A DNA stretch of 46,206 nucleotides from a virus. Location: IMG/VR virus record IMGVR_UViG_3300019360_000068, positions 1 through 46,206 of that record. One strand, given 5' to 3'. The notes under the pieces are model-generated. The model saw only the letters and a program-made list of their open reading frames with translations. It searched no databases and was not told the origin of the DNA. A program made the position numbers and the translations under genes. This document shows, piece after piece, positions 1 through 42,759 of this stretch (within the stretch, counting starts at the first letter, position 1; every line of letters begins with the position of its first letter).

Positions 1-143
1 CTGACGCGCGTGGCGGGCATTCTAGGACCATTCCCTACCTAGGCTCATCCAGGCACGTCCCCAATCGAATGATATTAGTAACGACCCTAACATTATTCAT
101 TGTATACATAGTCTCATATAGACTCAATAACACTTCCGAAACC

Positions 144-203
144 GTTTCCAGGTCGTTTCCATGCCGTTTCGGGCCAAGTTCCGCCCAGTTTCCGCCTCGA
201 TTC
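144..203 (-). repeat. Phased array A: GTTTC every 11 bp
   Basis: GTTTC occurs at 144, 155, 166 and 188, with degenerate copies at 177 (AGTTC) and 199 (GATTC). All six are spaced by exactly 11 bases. On the minus strand the unit reads as GGAAAC plus five variable bases. The one-turn spacing would place every copy on the same DNA face, as in iterons or operator arrays. The mirror array lies at 523-571. Confidence 0.7.
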
Positions 204-300
204 AACCCACGAAATCGAGCCTAAAGTGATGCAATGAAAGGACTTAGCTCAAGGGGTCCAGGACTACAGGAAGTCGATAGGGCCTATTCATCAGTCCCGA

Positions 301-425
301 GTGACCTATTCAGAGGACACTTGTGGTATGAGGTAGGGAGTGTTATTATTTTATATATTTTTTTTTTAGAACTTAACTAATACTTCCGGAAACTGGTATG
401 CGGAAGTGTCCTCTAGATAGGTCAC
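301..425. repeat. 22-bp inverted repeat with T10 at its centre
   Basis: The arm at 301-322 (begins GTGACCTAT, ends AGAGGACACTT) matches the reverse complement of 404-425 at 20 of 22 positions. The 81-base interior is AT-rich, and a run of ten T lies at 358-367 around the dyad centre (363). A nested 7-bp hairpin, ACTTCCG/CGGAAGT, occupies 392-408. The interior is too long for a simple terminator; a DNA-level role at an origin, or extruded structure, is more likely. Confidence 0.7.
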
Positions 426-522
426 TACGACTGGACGATATGCCGGTATCGAATTCCGGGAGAGAGGGAGGGGTCGCCCTAACTCGCTGTAAACAAAGGA
501 CTTAGGTCACTTCCGGTGGGTT

Positions 523-571
523 GAAAGAGGGCAGAAACAGCCCAGAAAGTAGTCAGAAACCACCCGGAAAC
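523..571 (+). repeat. Phased array B: GAAAC/G every 11 bp
   Basis: GAAA followed by C or G occurs at 523, 534, 545, 556 and 567, an exact 11-base period. The consensus is CAGAAAC plus four variable bases. It is the same core as array A but on the opposite strand. Its inner edge is 160 bp from the dyad centre at 363, and so is the inner edge of array A. Confidence 0.75.
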
Positions 572-770
572 TCCCCGATGAGAATAATATTGCAACTATT
601 AATCAAATAATCACTATAAGTCCTTATTCATTAATTGAGAATTAAGTAAGATAATATAAACAAGGGCGAAAAACTTTTGTTATATTCGCTTTTGTTTCGT
701 GTTCTGGACCAGAGCGGAATATTGTCACCAAAGTGACGGAATTTGGCAATTTTGCACACTAGATGTTGTG

Positions 771-903: not shown

Positions 904-1689
904 ATGAATCACGAATTCAGGCCATCATTATTAGATGAGAATCTCTGCGGTATTTGTCGTTATCCGCAAGTGATTCACACTGATAAGGCAGAATGCAGAA
1001 TCTGCCATGAATTAACTACCGTGAACCTCGCACACGGTCAATTAATGTGTCAGAAGTGTGAGGACAAAATCATGACCACAAGGGAAACAATACCCGGATA
1101 TGCGGAAATGCAAGATAAAGTCAAGGCTCACGCTGCGACTATCGAAATAAATCAGGTTCTTCGCAGCGCGAGGGATATTGATTCCACAATTCAAGTACGC
1201 ACAGACCTATTCAATGCTGCCACAAAAAGTATAGTCGAGATTAAGGCTGCAATCGATGGTGATGAGAACATTACCAATAAGCCTTATGAACTTGCCAAAA
1301 TCCTGCGTGAGCGTTTCGACCACTATAAGCAAGTAGTGTTCGATGCTCACGCTGTAATTCAGGAAGCAGGAAATAATCAGAAGGCTATTCAAGTCTATCT
1401 GAATCAGATGGCAAATACGCTTCGAGCGGAAGAACGTGAGAAGCTAAAGATTGCTGATATCAATTATCAGCCCACTACTCCTAAGGTTGTAAAGCCCCAC
1501 GCTGTCAAGACAACAGGCACTTCCAAGAAAATCGATAAGACTACACTCCGCAAGTATGCGAGTGAACTTGGAATTTCCGAGTTTGTTCTGCAACAAGTCG
1601 TCGTCTCGAAAGGCGTAACTGTTGAAAAGGCTGCTGATATTCTCAGGGCCAGTATTATAGCAGGCAAAGCTGCTCAGACTCAAGCGTAA
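904..1689 (+). CDS. Zinc-finger-like early protein, unknown function
   Basis: A 261-residue protein with no family I recognise. Three cysteine pairs near the N-terminus (C15/C18, C31/C34, C49/C52) suggest one or two zinc-binding sites. The middle (about 60-200) is predicted helical, and a basic linker leads to a small helical C-terminal segment (about 208-255). I chose ATG 904 because AAAGACAC lies just before it, matching the leader of the next genes; the in-frame upstream start at 799 would run through the promoter and operator O2. As the first gene after the control region it is a candidate early regulator, which is inference from position only. Confidence 0.7.
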   Translation: MNHEFRPSLLDENLCGICRYPQVIHTDKAECRICHELTTVNLAHGQLMCQKCEDKIMTTRETIPGYAEMQDKVKAHAATIEINQVLRSARDIDSTIQVRTDLFNAATKSIVEIKAAIDGDENITNKPYELAKILRERFDHYKQVVFDAHAVIQEAGNNQKAIQVYLNQMANTLRAEEREKLKIADINYQPTTPKVVKPHAVKTTGTSKKIDKTTLRKYASELGISEFVLQQVVVSKGVTVEKAADILRASIIAGKAAQTQA

Positions 1690-2340: not shown

Positions 2341-4524
2341 ATGGACAGACTACGCGCAAGCGAATTGTGCAAGGCCGAGCTTAAGAAGCATGGTCTAACG
2401 GAATGGGGCGTTCGTCTCACGACGGATGCTAACCAGCCGTTCCTCGGTATGTGTGTGCATCGGGATAAGGTAATCATCCTGAACGCACACCATATCGATA
2501 TCCATCCTGATTTGGAAGTGGTGGATACGATTAAGCATGAAGTGGCCCACGCGCTTACGCCGGGACACGCTCACGATGAAGTATGGGCCGCAAAGGCTCG
2601 TGAGATTGGCTGCACTAACACGCTGCCATGCTCACATCTGAGCTTTCCTGACCATGTTATCGATGCTATCCGTAGCGGTGCTACCATCGAGATGACAGTC
2701 GAGGAAGAAGTTCACGTTATCCGTAGGCCGAAGTATACCGTTACTCGGCTACAGGATAAGTGTCCTCACTGTGGTAAGGTGGCAGTCGAACGCTCATCAA
2801 CGGAATTCATCGATTCCCAGACGGGTAACACTGTCAAGTGGATTACGCTGGAATGCTTCCACGTTATCCAGAAGATTATTCCGAGAGGCACGCCTTTCGA
2901 GACGATGGTTTCCAATTTCTGGAAGCCTGAAATCGCTGCGTGTAAGCACGAATGGGAGAAGCATCAGTGTACTAAGTGCGGTGAATTCCGCCTGATGCCA
3001 TTCCAAATCGTTGGTGCTAAGGCCGCTGAGGCTGGATTGTCCACTCAAAAGGGTTTTGGCATCTTCGATGAAATGGGTCTAGGTAAGACTGTTCAGGGTC
3101 TTGCCATTCCCAAATTCCACAAGCAGTATCTTCCCTTTCTCGTAGTCACCAAGTCTGCAATTACTTTCCAGTGGTTTAAGCAGATTATTAGGTGGCTTGG
3201 TCCTGACCATCTTCCGCAAATCATCCGCACTTCTAGGGATGTGATTCTGCCTGGCCTCAAGGCATATATCATTCCTTACGACCTATTGCGTCGCTTCCCA
3301 CGCGAAAAGCTGGCTAAGGCTGGCTTCAAACTTATTCTGTTGGATGAATGCCAGCAGATTAAGAATCCTGATAGCTCTCGCACACAGGAAGTTCGTAGGC
3401 TTGTAGGGATTGACCCTACTTGCAAAGTACTTCCACTTAGTGCTACTCCCTGGAAGAATCGTGGTGGTGAATTCTTCCCCGTTCTCAACATAATGGACCC
3501 TATCAAGTTCCATTCCTATCAGGGATATCTTGATACATGGGTTGATTTCTATTACGAAGGTCCTAAGAAGAAGATGGGTGGTATTAGTAATCCTAAGAAG
3601 TTCCAAGCATACGTTGAATCACTCCTGATTCGGCGTGAATACAATGAGGTAATCGAGGATTTCCCCAGCGTAAATCGTATGAAGTTGCCTGTTCAGTTGG
3701 ACGAACTGAGTCAGGGAACCTACGATGATACTGAGAGTGCATTCGTCGCATGGTATAACGAAGCAGTTATCGGCGGCGAAGAAGATAAGATTAGCAGTAT
3801 TGAAATCTTGGCTCAGATGGCGCGTATGCGTCACGTTACAGGCCTCGCTAAGATTCCTGCTACTCTTGGTTTCATTGAAGAGTTTATCAATGATACCGAA
3901 AAGAAAATTGTTATCTTCGTTCATCATAAGGATGTTGGTGTCCTCATGACTGGCGCGCTCACTAATACCGATAAGAAAACTAATCCTGATTGGTATGAGC
4001 TTGCACAGACAATCAAGGCTGAAGGTATTAAGATTCTGAACTATACCTCAGCACACACTGGTAAGCCTGAAGGCTCTATCATTCAGGATACCTTCAATGC
4101 TACGCCACGCTGTATCATGGTGGCTTCTACTCTGGCATGTGGTGAGGGATTGGACCTCCAGACTTGTGCTGATGCTATCATGCATGAGCGTCAGTGGAAT
4201 CCTCAGAATGAGGACCAAGCTGCACCAGGTAGATTTAGGAGAATTGGTCAGCTCTCAAATGTTATTGGTATTACATTCCCAGAGGCTGAGGGAACTATTG
4301 ACGAACATCTCGATGGATTAGTGGAATCCAAGCGTCGTCAATTTCACGATGTAATGAATAAGTCTGAACTCAATACTTGGAGTCAGGACTCATTCGCTCG
4401 TGAACTTGCAGAACTAATCGTTGCCAAGCACAAGAAGAAGAATGTTGGTAAGGCAAAGACTAACATTACTTCTGCTGCATCATTCAAGCCACGCACTCAA
4501 TTTGCACTCATTCTTGATTACTAA
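2341..4524 (+). CDS. SprT-like metalloprotease domain fused to SNF2 helicase
   Basis: A 727-residue two-module protein. Residues about 1-120 look like a SprT/Spartan-type zincin: HEVAH at 66-70, with further histidines in GHAHDEVW (75-82) and IGC after it, the usual SprT layout. Cysteine pairs at 141/144 and 210/213 suggest zinc ribbons. The SNF2 ATPase follows: Walker A in DEMGLGKT (243-250), Walker B as DECQ (335-338), SAT (367-369), motif V GEGLDLQ (601-607) and motif VI with RFRRIGQ (631-637). SNF2 proteins translocate on duplex DNA; SprT proteins cut DNA-bound proteins. A combined role in stripping or degrading proteins on DNA is inference. Gene start is set by the open frame; the ribosome site is weak. 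Confidence 0.85.
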   Translation: MDRLRASELCKAELKKHGLTEWGVRLTTDANQPFLGMCVHRDKVIILNAHHIDIHPDLEVVDTIKHEVAHALTPGHAHDEVWAAKAREIGCTNTLPCSHLSFPDHVIDAIRSGATIEMTVEEEVHVIRRPKYTVTRLQDKCPHCGKVAVERSSTEFIDSQTGNTVKWITLECFHVIQKIIPRGTPFETMVSNFWKPEIAACKHEWEKHQCTKCGEFRLMPFQIVGAKAAEAGLSTQKGFGIFDEMGLGKTVQGLAIPKFHKQYLPFLVVTKSAITFQWFKQIIRWLGPDHLPQIIRTSRDVILPGLKAYIIPYDLLRRFPREKLAKAGFKLILLDECQQIKNPDSSRTQEVRRLVGIDPTCKVLPLSATPWKNRGGEFFPVLNIMDPIKFHSYQGYLDTWVDFYYEGPKKKMGGISNPKKFQAYVESLLIRREYNEVIEDFPSVNRMKLPVQLDELSQGTYDDTESAFVAWYNEAVIGGEEDKISSIEILAQMARMRHVTGLAKIPATLGFIEEFINDTEKKIVIFVHHKDVGVLMTGALTNTDKKTNPDWYELAQTIKAEGIKILNYTSAHTGKPEGSIIQDTFNATPRCIMVASTLACGEGLDLQTCADAIMHERQWNPQNEDQAAPGRFRRIGQLSNVIGITFPEAEGTIDEHLDGLVESKRRQFHDVMNKSELNTWSQDSFARELAELIVAKHKKKNVGKAKTNITSAASFKPRTQFALILDY

Positions 4525-7275: not shown

Positions 7276-7474
7276 AGAACAGGAAGTTCGTATCGAGTTT
7301 CTTAAAAAATACAGAAATCGTACCTGTCCTGCACACGGTGGAAAGATTGTAAATGGTCTTTTCATTGGAACATTCTGGTGTCCCGAATGTGAGAATGTAT
7401 GGAAGGTCCATACTCTCGCCAGCGGAAAACAGCAATGGTGGTATGAAGATACACTGGGGCAGTTAAATGGCTAG
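7256..7474 (+). CDS. Small protein with a split zinc site
   Basis: 72 residues from ATG 7256; GGAGG at 7245-7249 lies at ideal distance. Cysteine and histidine positions (CPAH then CPECENVW) suggest one zinc-binding site holding a small beta structure. It overlaps both neighbours (20 bases before, 8 after). It could be an adaptor or anti-host protein; no family is recognised. Confidence 0.6.
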   Translation: MVMLGDKEQEVRIEFLKKYRNRTCPAHGGKIVNGLFIGTFWCPECENVWKVHTLASGKQQWWYEDTLGQLNG

Positions 7475-7766
7475 AAAGAAAAGTGGTGCAGCGAATCATA
7501 TCCATCGGTATAGGCGACTCAATCTGAGTGGCAGACCGAAGGAAAAGTATTACGTACTTCGTTGCACTAAACCGACTTGTACTCACTATATTCGAGTAGA
7601 CATGGCAGAAGGTCAACTTGCCGAATGTAATCGTTGCGGTAATCCTTTTGTGCTGAATAGGGAGACTGTGCGCCTTGCCAAACCACATTGCACAGATTGT
7701 ATCAAGCGTAAGAAATCTGAAGAAGTTGATACAATCGCAGGGTTCCTGGCGAATCGTGAGTCTTAA
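7467..7766 (+). CDS. Zinc-ribbon protein
   Basis: 99 residues with a basic N-terminus (MARKKSGAANHIHRYRR) and six cysteines: CTKPTC, CNRCGNPF and CTDCIKRK. The spacing suits one or two zinc ribbons, as in nucleic-acid-binding phage proteins. The stop lies inside the first stem of the structured element at 7755-7817. No specific family is recognised. Confidence 0.65.
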   Translation: MARKKSGAANHIHRYRRLNLSGRPKEKYYVLRCTKPTCTHYIRVDMAEGQLAECNRCGNPFVLNRETVRLAKPHCTDCIKRKKSEEVDTIAGFLANRES

Positions 7767-10071: not shown

Positions 10072-10307
10072 TAAGTCGTCGGGAATTTCTTCAGTTACTT
10101 GCAGCCGGAGTAATTGGTCATACGCTAGATGTAGACAAATTACTTTGGGTGCCTGGACAGAAGACTATATTCCTGCCATCAGTAGATATTATCCATCCCA
10201 GTATTAGCGAAATAGTTGCACTGGAGTTGGAAAGAATGTTACCGAAAATCAAAAACTTATTCGAGCGTGACGATGCCTTCTATAAAAGAATTAGTCACGA
10301 CATATAA
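10038..10307 (+). CDS. Tat-like leader fused to a capsid N-terminus-like segment
   Basis: 89 residues. Residues about 13-30 (SRREFLQLLAAGVIGHTL) look like a twin-arginine signal: S-R-R-x-F-L plus a moderately hydrophobic stretch. The C-terminal 33 residues resemble the start of this phage's major capsid protein (gene 34339-35589): both carry ALELER, then KI, then LFERDD, then FY, with the same spacing; about 17 of 29 aligned residues are identical. It is an early-strand gene, far from and opposite to the capsid gene. Whether it is exported, or only uses a helical leader, is unknown. ATG 10038 overlaps the CSD gene by 34 bases. Confidence 0.6.
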   Translation: MESHQNQNPNIVSRREFLQLLAAGVIGHTLDVDKLLWVPGQKTIFLPSVDIIHPSISEIVALELERMLPKIKNLFERDDAFYKRISHDI

Positions 10308-10542
10308 GGAAGAAACCACATGGCACGGTAAGGTGATAGTCATGGAGATTTATCATCTTGCTATGCTAACCAAGGATAAAGCCTGGACAATTGCAGATAC
10401 AGCCTCTGGTTTAGAGGTTAGTATTGGCCTAGTCAGTGAGAATCTTCGCCTCGCTCAAGCAATACATGACGATGCGAAATTCTTAAAATGTGAGTCACGC
10501 CAAGCTGCATTAAAGAGATGGTATGCTCATCGAACTAGATAA
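10273..10542 (+). CDS. Helix-turn-helix-like DNA-binding protein
   Basis: 89 residues from ATG 10273 or 66 from ATG 10342 (AAGGTGA upstream). I prefer the longer form because PSIKELVTTYKEETTWHGKV reads as protein, although it overlaps the previous gene by 35 bases. The central WTIADTASGLEVSIGLVSE followed by NLRLAQAI matches the shape of a ParB/KorB-type or HTH module (a turn after AsgLevS, then a recognition-like helix). It probably binds DNA; it could be a regulator of the replication genes that follow. Confidence 0.55.
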   Translation: MPSIKELVTTYKEETTWHGKVIVMEIYHLAMLTKDKAWTIADTASGLEVSIGLVSENLRLAQAIHDDAKFLKCESRQAALKRWYAHRTR

Positions 10543-10692: not shown

Positions 10693-13248
10693 ATGAGTGA
10701 AATCAAGCATAAATACGTCCCAGGTATGGGGCCTTTGGGTTCCAAGTTAATGATACTTGGAGAAGCACCCTCGTATGCTGAGACTTCTGCTGGTAGACCC
10801 TTTGTTGGGCCTTCCGGTAAAGAACTTGACCGCATGTTGTATGATGCGGGAATGAATCGAAATAACTATTGGGTGACTAACGTATGTAAATACGAAGTGC
10901 CACCTAATGTTGGCAAGAAGAAGATACCCTTTCATATCCGTGCCAAGAATCATGGTATTGATATAGACCAACAGTTAACAGAACTTAGGGAGGAAATCAA
11001 TGGGATTCAACCAAATTGTATTCTTGCTTTGGGCTCTACTGCTTTATGGGCTCTATCCGGTAAGACAAAGATTGGGTCATTCCGAGGCAGTATTCTTCAT
11101 GGTATGGGTCGTAAGTTTGTTGCTACTTACCATCCTGCTCATCTACTACATGCGGCTTCTGGTGGAGAATTTAAGGGCTACTGGAATCGACAGGTAATGA
11201 TTGTTGATTTTAAAAGAGCACTTGAAGAATCGTTAACATCAGAGATTAATCTTCCTACTCGCACTCTCGAAATCTGTCGGTCATCCTACCAATTAGCAGA
11301 ATTTCGTAAGAGATACGCCGCATTCAATAGAATGAGTGTGGACATCGAATCTAACGGAACATGCATTCCTGTTTGCGTGGGTCTTGCCTTAAACAAGCAT
11401 CACGGGCTCACTGTCCCTCTCTGGAATACAGACAACATCTCTACCATACCAGATTCTGATTTGATTCAGATATGGATTATGCTTGCAGAGATGTTATGGG
11501 AAAAGGATATCATCGGTCAGAATTTCAACTATGACCGTGATAAGTTAATGAGACTTGGCTTCGTGATTCGTAATCTTAGCAGTGATACGATGATGAAGGC
11601 TCAAGCCATTAATCCTGAGCTTCCTAAAAGTCTAGGCTTCAACACTTCTATTTATACTCGCGAACCCTTCTACAAAGATGAAGGGATGTATCAAGGAACT
11701 ATCCATGACCTACTCTTAGGCTGCGCACGTGATGCGTGTGTAACCTTTGAGATTGATGATAACATGGACCCTGACATTGACGAACTAGGTCAACGCGATT
11801 ATTATCAAAATTTCCTGATGAAGTTGCCCGAGATGTATTGGGCCATCGAACGTCAGGGATTCCGAGTTGACTCCACGGAGCGAGATAAGCTCATTCGTAA
11901 ATACATCGAATGGGATGAGCGACTTCGCTATGAATTGTTCCAGTTAGTTGGAACAGAAATCAATGTAAATAGTCCAAAACAGGTATCTATTCTCCTGTTT
12001 GAGAATTTCAAACTTCCATTGCGGAGTGGAACAGGTGAAGAAGAAATTACTGCGCTACTTAATTCGCAATCAGCGGTTAAGAAACCGGAACATAGAAAAG
12101 TTTTGGAGCTTATACTGGAAGATAGGCGAGTCAGGAAGTCCATTAGTACATATCTCATGGCTCTTCCTGATTATGATGGCAGGATGCGTACTACTTACTT
12201 CCCCTGTCTTGATACTGGAAGGTCTTCTACTGGACAACAGGACCCGCCAATTAGACCATCCATACAAGTTGTGGGTGAGGATGGAAAGAAAAAAGAAAAA
12301 TCACTAGGCATCGCATTCCAAACGATGACTAAACACGGTGATGTAGGTGCTGATATTCGTGGCATGTATGTCCCGGATAATGACATTGATGAAGAGGTAT
12401 TCGTTCAAGCTGACTCTTCCCAAGCAGAAGCTAGAGTAGTCTGGCTACTAGCGGAGGATTATGAAGCACTACGACTTGTCGATGAAATTGATTACCATGC
12501 CCTCACTGCCTCTTGGTTTTTCGGTGGAACAGAAGCAGACTATTCTAAAAAAGTTCTCGGATATGAACATCCAATACGATTTGCGGGAAAAACTCTTCGA
12601 CATGCTGGACACTTGGGTGCAGGAAAACGACGAGCCGCTACTAGTGTCAATACAGATGCCAGAAAATACAAAGTGCCGATTAGTATTACTGAAGCGATTG
12701 CCGAAAGAGCTTTAATCATCTTTCACGGTAAGCAACCGAAGATTCAACAGGTCTTTCAAAATGGCGTTATCGAATGCCTCAAGCGTAATCGACAGCTTGT
12801 TGCAGGAATCCCCTACGGAATTAATTCAAAGATTGGTGGTCAGAGAACTTTTTTTGAAAGGTTTGGAGAAGAACTTTTCAGACAAGGATTCTCTTATATT
12901 CCCCAGCGTTCTATATCGGACAACACCAAAGCAGCCGGACTCAGACTCCGTGAGAGAATTCCAGGAATCAAAATTGTCATGGAATCTCACGATGCATTAC
13001 TTTTTTCCATTTCCAAATCCAAGCTACCACTCTGGATTCCCATCATTAAAGAAGAATTTGAGAGACCTATTGATTTCTCGAATTGTTCTCTACCTAGACG
13101 TGAGCTTATTATACCCTGCGAAATCGAAACTGGGTATAACTACCGAGACCTTAAGAAGTTCAAAGACTTAGCAATCGTGCATAAGCCAATAGAACCTAAG
13201 ATGGTTCCTCGAAATATAACTGAGTCATTCCTCGCGCCACTGGAGTAA
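10693..13248 (+). CDS. DNA polymerase I with N-terminal uracil-DNA-glycosylase domain
   Basis: An 851-residue fusion. Residues 1-180 match family 4/5-type UDGs: GEAPS (23-27), GRPFVGPSGKELD (34-46), and HPAHLL (147-152) as the second active-site motif. The cysteines for a typical iron-sulphur cluster are absent. A 3'-5' exonuclease follows (DIES 217-220, GQNFNYDRD 275-282, DACVTFEID 347-355), then the family A polymerase: TGRSSTGQQDPP (508-519), motif A DSSQAEAR (574-581), motif B K633-x7-GA-type helix (RFAGKTLRHAGHLGAGK), motif C SHDA (765-768). It is the replicative polymerase candidate. SPO1-type phage polymerases have a similar UDG-like N-terminus. Confidence 0.9.
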   Translation: MSEIKHKYVPGMGPLGSKLMILGEAPSYAETSAGRPFVGPSGKELDRMLYDAGMNRNNYWVTNVCKYEVPPNVGKKKIPFHIRAKNHGIDIDQQLTELREEINGIQPNCILALGSTALWALSGKTKIGSFRGSILHGMGRKFVATYHPAHLLHAASGGEFKGYWNRQVMIVDFKRALEESLTSEINLPTRTLEICRSSYQLAEFRKRYAAFNRMSVDIESNGTCIPVCVGLALNKHHGLTVPLWNTDNISTIPDSDLIQIWIMLAEMLWEKDIIGQNFNYDRDKLMRLGFVIRNLSSDTMMKAQAINPELPKSLGFNTSIYTREPFYKDEGMYQGTIHDLLLGCARDACVTFEIDDNMDPDIDELGQRDYYQNFLMKLPEMYWAIERQGFRVDSTERDKLIRKYIEWDERLRYELFQLVGTEINVNSPKQVSILLFENFKLPLRSGTGEEEITALLNSQSAVKKPEHRKVLELILEDRRVRKSISTYLMALPDYDGRMRTTYFPCLDTGRSSTGQQDPPIRPSIQVVGEDGKKKEKSLGIAFQTMTKHGDVGADIRGMYVPDNDIDEEVFVQADSSQAEARVVWLLAEDYEALRLVDEIDYHALTASWFFGGTEADYSKKVLGYEHPIRFAGKTLRHAGHLGAGKRRAATSVNTDARKYKVPISITEAIAERALIIFHGKQPKIQQVFQNGVIECLKRNRQLVAGIPYGINSKIGGQRTFFERFGEELFRQGFSYIPQRSISDNTKAAGLRLRERIPGIKIVMESHDALLFSISKSKLPLWIPIIKEEFERPIDFSNCSLPRRELIIPCEIETGYNYRDLKKFKDLAIVHKPIEPKMVPRNITESFLAPLE

Positions 13249-16460: not shown

Positions 16461-16544
16461 GCCGGATTGGCGGAATGGCAGACGCGCGGGACTTAAAATC
16501 CTGTTCTTAACAGAGTGTGGGTTCGACTCCCTCATCCGGCACCA
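16461..16544 (+). tRNA. tRNA-Leu (anticodon TAA), CCA encoded
   Basis: Acceptor arms GCCGGAT and ATCCGGC pair perfectly; the anticodon arm is CGGGA-CTTAAAA-TCCTG with TAA at 16494-16496; a long class II variable arm (TTCTTAACAGAG) and TTCGACT T-loop follow. The T-stem has one T-T mismatch. ACCA is encoded at the 3' end. It reads UUA (and UUG by wobble), codons that may be rarer in the host than in this fairly AT-rich phage. Confidence 0.93.
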
Positions 16545-40741: not shown

Positions 40742-41105
40742 TCTCCCGTTCTAATTCGGAGACATCAATTTCGCCATTCTTTACCAGTTGTGAATCTGGC
40801 TTAGGAGCTTCTCTCATTGCACGGGCACGTTCTCTATCTTCCCGTTCTAATATCTGTTGTCTTACATGGAATGGCAAATGTCTCGGTCTAGTTACTGGAA
40901 CAGGAGGCTGAACAACTTCCTTTTCAGGAATAGCCGTCACTCTATCCAGTAAACGCATATTCTGAGCATTTGCAATATCTAATTGCTGCTTAAGTATCTC
41001 ACAAGAAGAACAAACTAATTCTCTCTCATGAATTTCTTCACAGTGAGGACAGTGTGGGTTGAATAGTTGGTGAAACCATCGACCAATTCTAGCGCCTAGA
41101 TGCAC
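40698..41105 (-). CDS. Zinc-finger/coiled-coil protein beside terminase
   Basis: 135 residues. Cysteines in PHCPHCEEIH and VCSSCEIL (about 18-36) form a likely zinc finger, followed by a helix (KQQLDIANAQNMRLLDRV), a proline linker, and a charged helix. It overlaps the terminase end by 17 bases. The combination is often seen as a small partner near the terminase in uncultured phages, by recollection. It may link terminase and portal. Confidence 0.55.
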   Translation of the reverse strand: MHLGARIGRWFHQLFNPHCPHCEEIHERELVCSSCEILKQQLDIANAQNMRLLDRVTAIPEKEVVQPPVPVTRPRHLPFHVRQQILEREDRERARAMREAPKPDSQLVKNGEIDVSELEREIGIAEAEREAQSSS

Positions 41106-42759
41106 GATGAAATCTCCTAGCTACTTGCATTTTCTTAATACCCTCAACATTACGCATATTACGATAGTATGCGGTCCAGTCTTGAGTGTTCTTAAGAGTT
41201 TCAAGAAGTTGTTCTTGTGCTTGAACTTTCTTCATTTCTTTTTCGGCGTCTATGAAGAAAGTTTCTGCACTATCACAAGCATATCGAATGTCATCATATG
41301 GGTCATCCCCATCAAATTCAGCGACATCCTCAGCAGGTTTATTATCCTTTGGCTTAGCGTAATTACAAGCCTTAATGGCTTCAATCATTACTGGACAACA
41401 GTTAGAATGTCCATCGTGATTAGTTGCCTCACACTTAAAAATCTGTAGCTTCGGGATGTTCGTTTCAGGTTCTGATGGGTCAAACAAAGCGAGATACGCT
41501 TTATAGTCCATCATTCCTTTATTACGAAGAACCCACATTGCATATTCTTCGCTATAAGTTGGCATTTCATTAGTTGGAATAACAGGCTTTTCTTTCCAGC
41601 GTAAATATTCGTGTAGTAACATTTTCCCCGCAATTCGAGAACCCGGAGAGTTAGAAGTTAGTTCAATACCTACTCCTAGTGCAGCTTCAATCTGTTGCTG
41701 AACAGTATGCTCAAGTCCTCTATCCTGCTTAGCAGATTGACAGAATTTGACGACTTTAGGCTGCTCAGATTCAATAAAGTGCTTAATTACTGGAGCCCAC
41801 TCTTCAATTTTAGTTTTCTGCCAGTAAAGTTCTCGGTATAGATACATTCGCTTCGATGGCGATATAGCGTAGAAGCCAATGTATGTCATCGCGGCAAATC
41901 CCCAATCACCGATAAACATCTTCGGCCACCAACTGGGAATTTGAAATGGTTGAATTACATGTAAAGCATTCTTTGGTTCATCAGGATATTGCTTCTCACG
42001 GAATTCATCGAATACTTGACCCTGATAAGCATCCCAATCACCGAATTTACGAGCTTTACGTTCAGCCTCGCTCGGGATACCATCAAGACGCTGTGAATAT
42101 GTAGGGTCCGCATGAGGATTATCTACTACTGTAGAATGAATGTAAATCCTCTTAACGTTTCCCTTACCTAAGATTATCTTTCCGCCAGTAGGATAAGGAG
42201 ATACAAATCGCTTCTTAACGAATGTATGTCCTGGTCCACCAGGCATTCCTGCCGCTCTAATAATAGACGGCAGATTTTCATCATTAGTTCGGACTCGAGT
42301 AAATCCAATACGTAAGTAGATATATTCAGAGAAAGTAGTTAACTCATCAGGAGTATAGAGATTAATTTCCATCGAGTCATATTTTAATGCATCCTCATCC
42401 TCTTCACAATGTGCTAAGAGAATGATAGCTCCAGTCCTCGCGCCAGTTCCACCAAGTTCATCGGGACGCGGAAACGTCCACATCATATCTGTCTTATTGA
42501 AGATTGCTCCAAATTTAGGGTAAATCTCCCGAGTGCGAGGAACAATCTCATTCTTCATTTCCGGATAAGTTCGACGCATGAAAACCTGTTTGAACTTAGG
42601 ATTTTCATGCCATCGATGAGCAATTCCATACATGAGTAACACGTCAGTCTTACCAGACGCATTACCTCCGCCATAGAATCCCTCAAAGATATTAAGCGGA
42701 AGCGATAAGAATGCTTCCTGCTTTTTATTGGGCTTCCAGAAGCCCTTATCAAATGCCAT
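41089..42759 (-). CDS. Terminase large subunit
   Basis: 556 residues. Walker A GGGNASGKTD (30-39), Walker B region MEINLYTPDEL (130-140, D138-E139), coupling-type region after it, and the nuclease start FIGDWGF (283-289; D285). The C-terminal DDPYDDIRYACDS adds acidic residues that could complete the RNase-H-like site. It packages DNA through the portal. ATG 42759 has no clear Shine-Dalgarno, and an AT-rich gap (AATTTAAAA) lies just before. The small terminase is at 43417-44001. Confidence 0.92.
   Translation of the reverse strand: MAFDKGFWKPNKKQEAFLSLPLNIFEGFYGGGNASGKTDVLLMYGIAHRWHENPKFKQVFMRRTYPEMKNEIVPRTREIYPKFGAIFNKTDMMWTFPRPDELGGTGARTGAIILLAHCEEDEDALKYDSMEINLYTPDELTTFSEYIYLRIGFTRVRTNDENLPSIIRAAGMPGGPGHTFVKKRFVSPYPTGGKIILGKGNVKRIYIHSTVVDNPHADPTYSQRLDGIPSEAERKARKFGDWDAYQGQVFDEFREKQYPDEPKNALHVIQPFQIPSWWPKMFIGDWGFAAMTYIGFYAISPSKRMYLYRELYWQKTKIEEWAPVIKHFIESEQPKVVKFCQSAKQDRGLEHTVQQQIEAALGVGIELTSNSPGSRIAGKMLLHEYLRWKEKPVIPTNEMPTYSEEYAMWVLRNKGMMDYKAYLALFDPSEPETNIPKLQIFKCEATNHDGHSNCCPVMIEAIKACNYAKPKDNKPAEDVAEFDGDDPYDDIRYACDSAETFFIDAEKEMKKVQAQEQLLETLKNTQDWTAYYRNMRNVEGIKKMQVARRFHRASRR

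Follow-up and report, generated by a model that had tools for sequence, protein, structure and literature searches.

Results

Gene Layout and Anatomy of the Element

The window analysed here is the whole 46,206-base stretch of IMG/VR virus record IMGVR_UViG_3300019360_000068. Rightward genes span about 0.9–17 kb and encode a SprT-SNF2 helicase fusion, a PD-(D/E)XK exonuclease, a Sak4-like protein, a uracil-DNA-glycosylase/polymerase A fusion, and a DUF3987 primase-like protein; the structural genes are read leftward over about 17–44.5 kb, with the terminase at 41089–42759. The mirrored element that is the subject of this work lies at the divergence point of these two gene arms, that is, at the record ends. 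The first rightward gene beyond it is common to array-bearing and array-less relatives. In the helicase gene (2341–4524), the SprT-like domain is N-terminal to the SNF2-type helicase within one fused protein, and the uracil-DNA glycosylase domain and family A DNA polymerase likewise form a single 851-aa protein (10693–13248). A lone tRNA-Leu gene (anticodon TAA, 16461–16544) is located near the convergent end of the rightward genes. Among the matches listed, the polymerase is at most 26.5% identical to proteins of phage records, and the element had no DNA match among the phage DNA records searched; the relatives of the window phage are metagenome contigs of uncultured soil phages.

Table 1. 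Positions of the element's components and of the associated genes in the window.
Feature	Position	Strand	Description
Array A	144–209	−	Six 11-bp units; (R)GAAAC core, − strand
Inner dyad, arm A	222–247	.	CTAAGT-N14-ACTTTA (− strand reading); first unit 12 bp away
Palindrome, arm A side of the 22-bp inverted repeat	301–320	.	GTGACC-N8-GGACAC
Central T run	358–367	+	Contains the centre, 363; 334–383 is among the window's least stable DNA
Palindrome, arm B side of the 22-bp inverted repeat	406–425	.	GTGTCC-N8-GGTCAC
Purine/G-rich stretch inside arm B	457–475	+	
Inner dyad, arm B	479–505	.	CTAACT-N15-ACTTAG; 11 bp from the first unit
Array B	517–571	+	Five 11-bp units; (R)GAAAC/G core, + strand
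First rightward gene	904–1689	+	261 aa, N-terminal cysteine pairs
Zinc-ribbon protein	7467–7766	+	99 aa; HxH, CX4C, CXXC, HCXXC; candidate reader of the 11-mers
HTH-like protein	10282–10542	+	About 86 aa; in most element-bearing relatives

The original prediction placed GTTTC at 144, 155, 166, and 188, degenerate versions of it at 177 and 199, and GAAA(C/G) at 523, 534, 545, 556, and 567, and all of these occurrences were confirmed. The inner edges, 203 and 523, are both 160 bp from the centre at 363, as claimed. Such periodic order had been considered improbable by chance, and indeed none of 400 dinucleotide shuffles of the first 1 kb matched the real sequence when we scored any 5-mer occupying 4 of 6 steps at any period of 7–25. 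In the whole 46 kb window, the two strongest lag-11 places are those of array A (position 143, the best) and array B (position 523, the second).

The reported 22-bp inverted repeat stands in part: 301–322 and 404–425 are complementary at 20 of 22 positions about the centre at 363, but they are really two copies of the palindrome GTGTCC-N8-GGACAC. Four copies of this palindrome (301–320, 406–425, 771–790, and 848–867) are spread around the element and ahead of the first rightward gene, and related palindromes are present in array-less relatives; the four copies are probably operators. The second mirrored pair of dyads, 11–12 bp inside each array (Table 1), had been overlooked. To the right of array B, a GCGAA...TTCGC hairpin followed by T-rich sequence (664–697) recurs at the equivalent place in relatives.

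Conservation in Related Phages

The search for the arrays in related phages gave a positive result, the mirrored layout recurring in 23 related soil-phage contigs. These relatives, some of them near-identical, and the window were compared with the T tract that precedes the helicase gene as the anchor. The order is conserved: an array, the dyad CTAAGT-N14/15-ACTTAG, a G-rich stretch, the central T run, and then the mirror image. With no motif assumed, lag 11 was the best among lags 7–20 in every available arm of the 23 relatives and the window. Arms carry 5–7 units each (232 units in 42 arms of 23 phages), and the unit can be written as NGNNN(A/G)GAA(A/T)N, in which the GAA core is nearly fixed and the remaining positions differ between phages. 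The array-to-array distance varies from 256 to 358 bp. The spacing between dyad and array is 11–12 or 22–23 bp in 40 of 42 arms; the automatic pick scored the other two, L015_R and L019_R, wrongly, and the same layout is visible in their sequences. A dyad at 11–12 bp from the array, or at that distance plus another 11 bp, keeps the phase of the units. Further inside than the dyad, the G-rich stretch contains at least 4 consecutive G in 32 of 42 arms, and inside the G-rich stretches an AT-rich strip accompanies the T run. The T run itself is 10–25 bases long across the window and its relatives, with 15–25 T in relatives at the place of the window's run at 358–367. In 12 of 15 loci, no 50-bp stretch is less stable than the T tract; for the centre of the window itself, the rank in instability is third with 50-bp stretches and second with 30-bp ones.

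At the variable bases of the 11-mer, agreement was 0.578 between the arms of one genome versus 0.324 between genomes, a difference reached in 0 of 20,000 permutations; examples of such genome-specific 11-mers are CGTATGGAAAC (L012), TTCACGGAACA-like units (L015, L018), and GACTTGGGATT (L028). That the 11-mer differs between phages yet matches across the arms of one phage points to a trans-acting protein that would read both arms. The idea of a multimeric binding site on one face of the DNA is thus well supported by the 11-bp phase, the number of units per arm, the concerted change of the 11-mers, and the fixed dyad spacing in the close relatives examined.

Conserved flanks without periodic arrays, the case that the original prediction had named as refuting, were not seen in the close relatives, apart from two array-less exceptions inside the array clade, L036 and L054. 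A more distant genome, G030, was found via the dyad pattern alone and gives independent support for the link of the arrays with the zinc-ribbon protein. With a helicase of only 34% identity, it carries mirrored arrays, built of another 11-mer (GACCGACCTTA) and flanking an AT centre, as well as genes for both a zinc-ribbon protein (E 4e-23) and an HTH protein (E 2.5e-15). An open-ended scan of viral contigs for a phased GRAA pattern returned mostly unrelated tandem repeats, yet it yielded L273 (genome G035), in which the element, the zinc-ribbon protein, and the HTH protein are all present. One record, G002 (L019, L220), has 62,483 bases instead of the usual 46 kb and two differing copies of the HTH gene; two related phages have probably been assembled into one chimeric contig.

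Most array-less relatives retain the T tract, several of them with clusters of another repeat alongside, namely TACATGTA palindromes in 5–6 copies (L042, L051, L370) and CTGTGCGC (L068, L371). In three array-less loci (L370:2715–2741, L371:7637–7663, and L036:230–256), a promoter-like TTGAC follows a perfect or near-perfect dyad at a distance of about 10 bp, and this position suggests that the dyad may serve as an activator or operator site in these relatives.

The Zinc-Ribbon and HTH-like Proteins

A motif-free scan for inverted period-11 pairs covered 17 records (16 whole and G002 in part). Nine of them (the window, G001–G006, G019, and G020) scored 1.84–2.26, and eight (G009, G012–G016, G018, and G021) scored no more than 1.43. 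The near-type zinc-ribbon protein (A3 profile, more than 90 bits) was found in all nine array-pair records and in none of the eight array-less ones, in which the A3 profile gave 15–44 bits or no match. With tblastn, a diverged form of the zinc-ribbon protein was detected in array-less records upstream of the helicase, adjoining the T tract where one exists.

In the helicase tree, a single clade unites the array-bearing phages and also includes the two array-less members, L036 (G009) and L054. Both carry the diverged zinc-ribbon gene beside a T tract; L036 lacks the arrays and the near-type zinc-ribbon protein together, and the L054 record stops before the usual position of the near-type gene. 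At the edge of the clade, G020 (L074) has the arrays and the near-type zinc-ribbon protein and no HTH protein.

Within the clade, distances between zinc-ribbon proteins correlated with distances between 11-mers (partial rho = 0.43, p < 0.001), also after the removal of near-duplicates (partial rho = 0.41, p = 0.006), when neighbouring genes gave values of about 0. For the terminase the relation was weak and non-significant, with p = 0.06 on one variant. Because 14 genes were tested, the value p = 0.006 is only suggestive, and so is the co-evolution of the zinc-ribbon protein with the 11-mer. The co-occurrence and co-divergence make this protein the candidate reader of the 11-mers, an assignment we hold less firmly than the origin proposed below. 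A weak Pfam match to Ogr_Delta, the family of the Ogr/Delta transcription activators, was obtained for 5 of 21 zinc-ribbon members.

The HTH-like protein is a possible partner in the function of the element. It is dispensable for the arrays, being absent from G020 (46.8 kb). The data for G009 and G020 suggested that it might read the dyad; we dropped this idea because the dyads of L370 and L371 are perfect while G032 (46.9 kb) has no HTH match, so that in L370/G032 the dyad is present without the HTH protein.

Discussion

The Element as a Putative Replication Origin

The conservation and geometry of the element, the matching of its arms, its low-stability centre, and its co-occurrence with the zinc-ribbon protein are established by these comparisons. 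The original prediction had named an origin, a partition-like site, or a packaging recognition site as possible functions, and the first of these fits best. The element combines phased, replicon-specific sites beside easily melted DNA, as in iteron origins, with inverted sites around an AT-rich centre, as in archaeal origins, and this combination favours a bidirectional origin of replication; on this analysis of sequence, we put the chance that the element is the origin of the phage at barely better than even. Two features expected of an iteron origin are present, namely tandem direct repeats in helical phase and an adjoining A+T-rich, easily melted region; no initiator of a known family was found among the proteins scanned. 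GC skew, which had been put forward as a check, did not help: cumulative skew turns at the element but only tracks gene direction, as it does genome-wide, and fourfold sites show neither an arm effect nor a replication signal, and we therefore rejected it as evidence for an origin.

In the mechanism we propose, the 11-bp units within an arm would be occupied next to one another, all on a single helical face, by a phage protein, for which the small zinc-ribbon protein is the most likely candidate, and the phased dyad would anchor or regulate each arm. The two inverted protein complexes could then strain and melt the central T/A-rich tract, after which one replisome would be loaded per arm. More tentatively, and with considerable doubt, the element may represent a new class of phage origin, in which mirrored arrays of five to six 11-bp iterons with dyads surround a T-tract unwinding element and are read by an undescribed family of zinc-ribbon initiators of about 100 aa, their specificity co-evolving with the iterons.

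Alternative Explanations

The clustering of contig ends at the element, 0.8–3.3 kb upstream of the helicase, makes a packaging or concatemer junction the main rival, although an unlikely one. The inter-array segment of 256–358 bp would then be or contain a terminal repeat, and the arrays would be processing signals like SRR and SRL of T7. The divergence of the gene arms at the element suits a linear, N4-like map whose ends are here, as the N4 and T7 layouts would have it, and the weak, non-significant relation of terminase divergence to the 11-mer is in the same direction. Against this, the contig ends are scattered over the element, the overlaps of those in the T tract amount to about one k-mer, with differences in the T run, and G001, G003, and G005 close as circles elsewhere; the low-stability centre and the link to the zinc-ribbon protein would also be left unexplained. 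The ends examined in the T tract look like assembly breaks, and on the same grounds (k-mer-sized overlaps, other relatives circular elsewhere) we rejected the record ends as physical genome ends. Slightly less probable again is control of transcription, with the element as an operator or enhancer of the divergent early and late arms and the zinc-ribbon protein as an Ogr/Delta-like activator. Genes do diverge on both sides, the Ogr_Delta matches and the dyads upstream of TTGAC in L036 and L370 agree with such a role, and GTGTCC-N8-GGACAC palindromes recur closer to the first rightward gene. However, the window has only weak promoter-like matches, the best of them at 9 of 12, the nearest leftward gene lies beyond rightward ORFs at a distance of about 1.9 kb, and equal mirrored arms flanking a T tract are unusual for promoters.

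A centromere-like partition or DNA-organising site is quite improbable. Its model would be parC of plasmid R1, which also has two sets of about five phased direct repeats (PMC4949242), but the arrays of the element are inverted, stand about 300 bp apart, and surround an unstable centre. No match to ParM, ParR, ParA, or TubZ was found among the ORFs scanned, and we rejected a Par system on this basis; an integrase or another sign of plasmid life was likewise absent. A tyrosine-recombinase attP site was rejected because no integrase match occurred among the proteins scanned, and no provirus was found in genome contigs with the terminase as query. A chance or non-functional repeat, finally, has a negligible probability: it is refuted by the conservation across relatives and countered by the shuffles, the permutations, the preference for lag 11, the dyad spacing, and the inverted-pair scan.

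If the element is an origin, an uncultured and widespread group of soil phages gains a defined and testable replicon, whose layout would be otherwise familiar from archaea and whose minimal zinc-ribbon initiator would be unlike known initiator families. With 11-mers that are specific to each genome and agree across its arms, these phages offer a natural experiment in the joint change of a DNA-binding protein and its repeated site; the 11-mers could also aid in finding origins and in sorting such phages in metagenomes.

Comparison with Known Systems

The zinc-finger activators P2 Ogr and P4 Delta are small phage zinc proteins, as is the zinc-ribbon candidate, although its Pfam match to them is weak; we know of no binding of Ogr or Delta to phased 11-mers. 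In T7, the short-repeat arrays SRR and SRL stand beside the terminal repeat. The T7 terminal-repeat region and the element thus both have repeat arrays flanking a short central segment, which in T7 is at the junction of genome units, whereas the arrays described here flank a low-stability T tract and a terminal repeat is only putative.

The iterons of plasmids are about 19–22 bp long. Phased tandem sites beside A+T-rich DNA are common to the element and to iteron origins (phage lambda ori; plasmids P1, RK2, and R6K), but in the known origins the iterons lie beside the A+T-rich region, and here 11-bp repeats form two inverted arrays with dyads. In iteron origins, the phased tandem sites of the initiator adjoin the A+T-rich region that opens (PMC5043065). 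No known Rep/O protein was found for the element among the proteins scanned.

No gene for an Orc1/Cdc6 or WhiP initiator, as expected of archaeal ORB origins, was matched among the ORFs scanned, and the element has tandem 11-bp arrays, not ORBs. Archaeal origins have inverted ORB repeats flanking an AT-rich unwinding region, and the element likewise has inverted arrays around an AT-rich centre. In Haloarcula hispanica oriC1, a G-rich inverted repeat is located just inside each ORB (PMC4010727), and the G-rich stretch of the element is placed in the same way.
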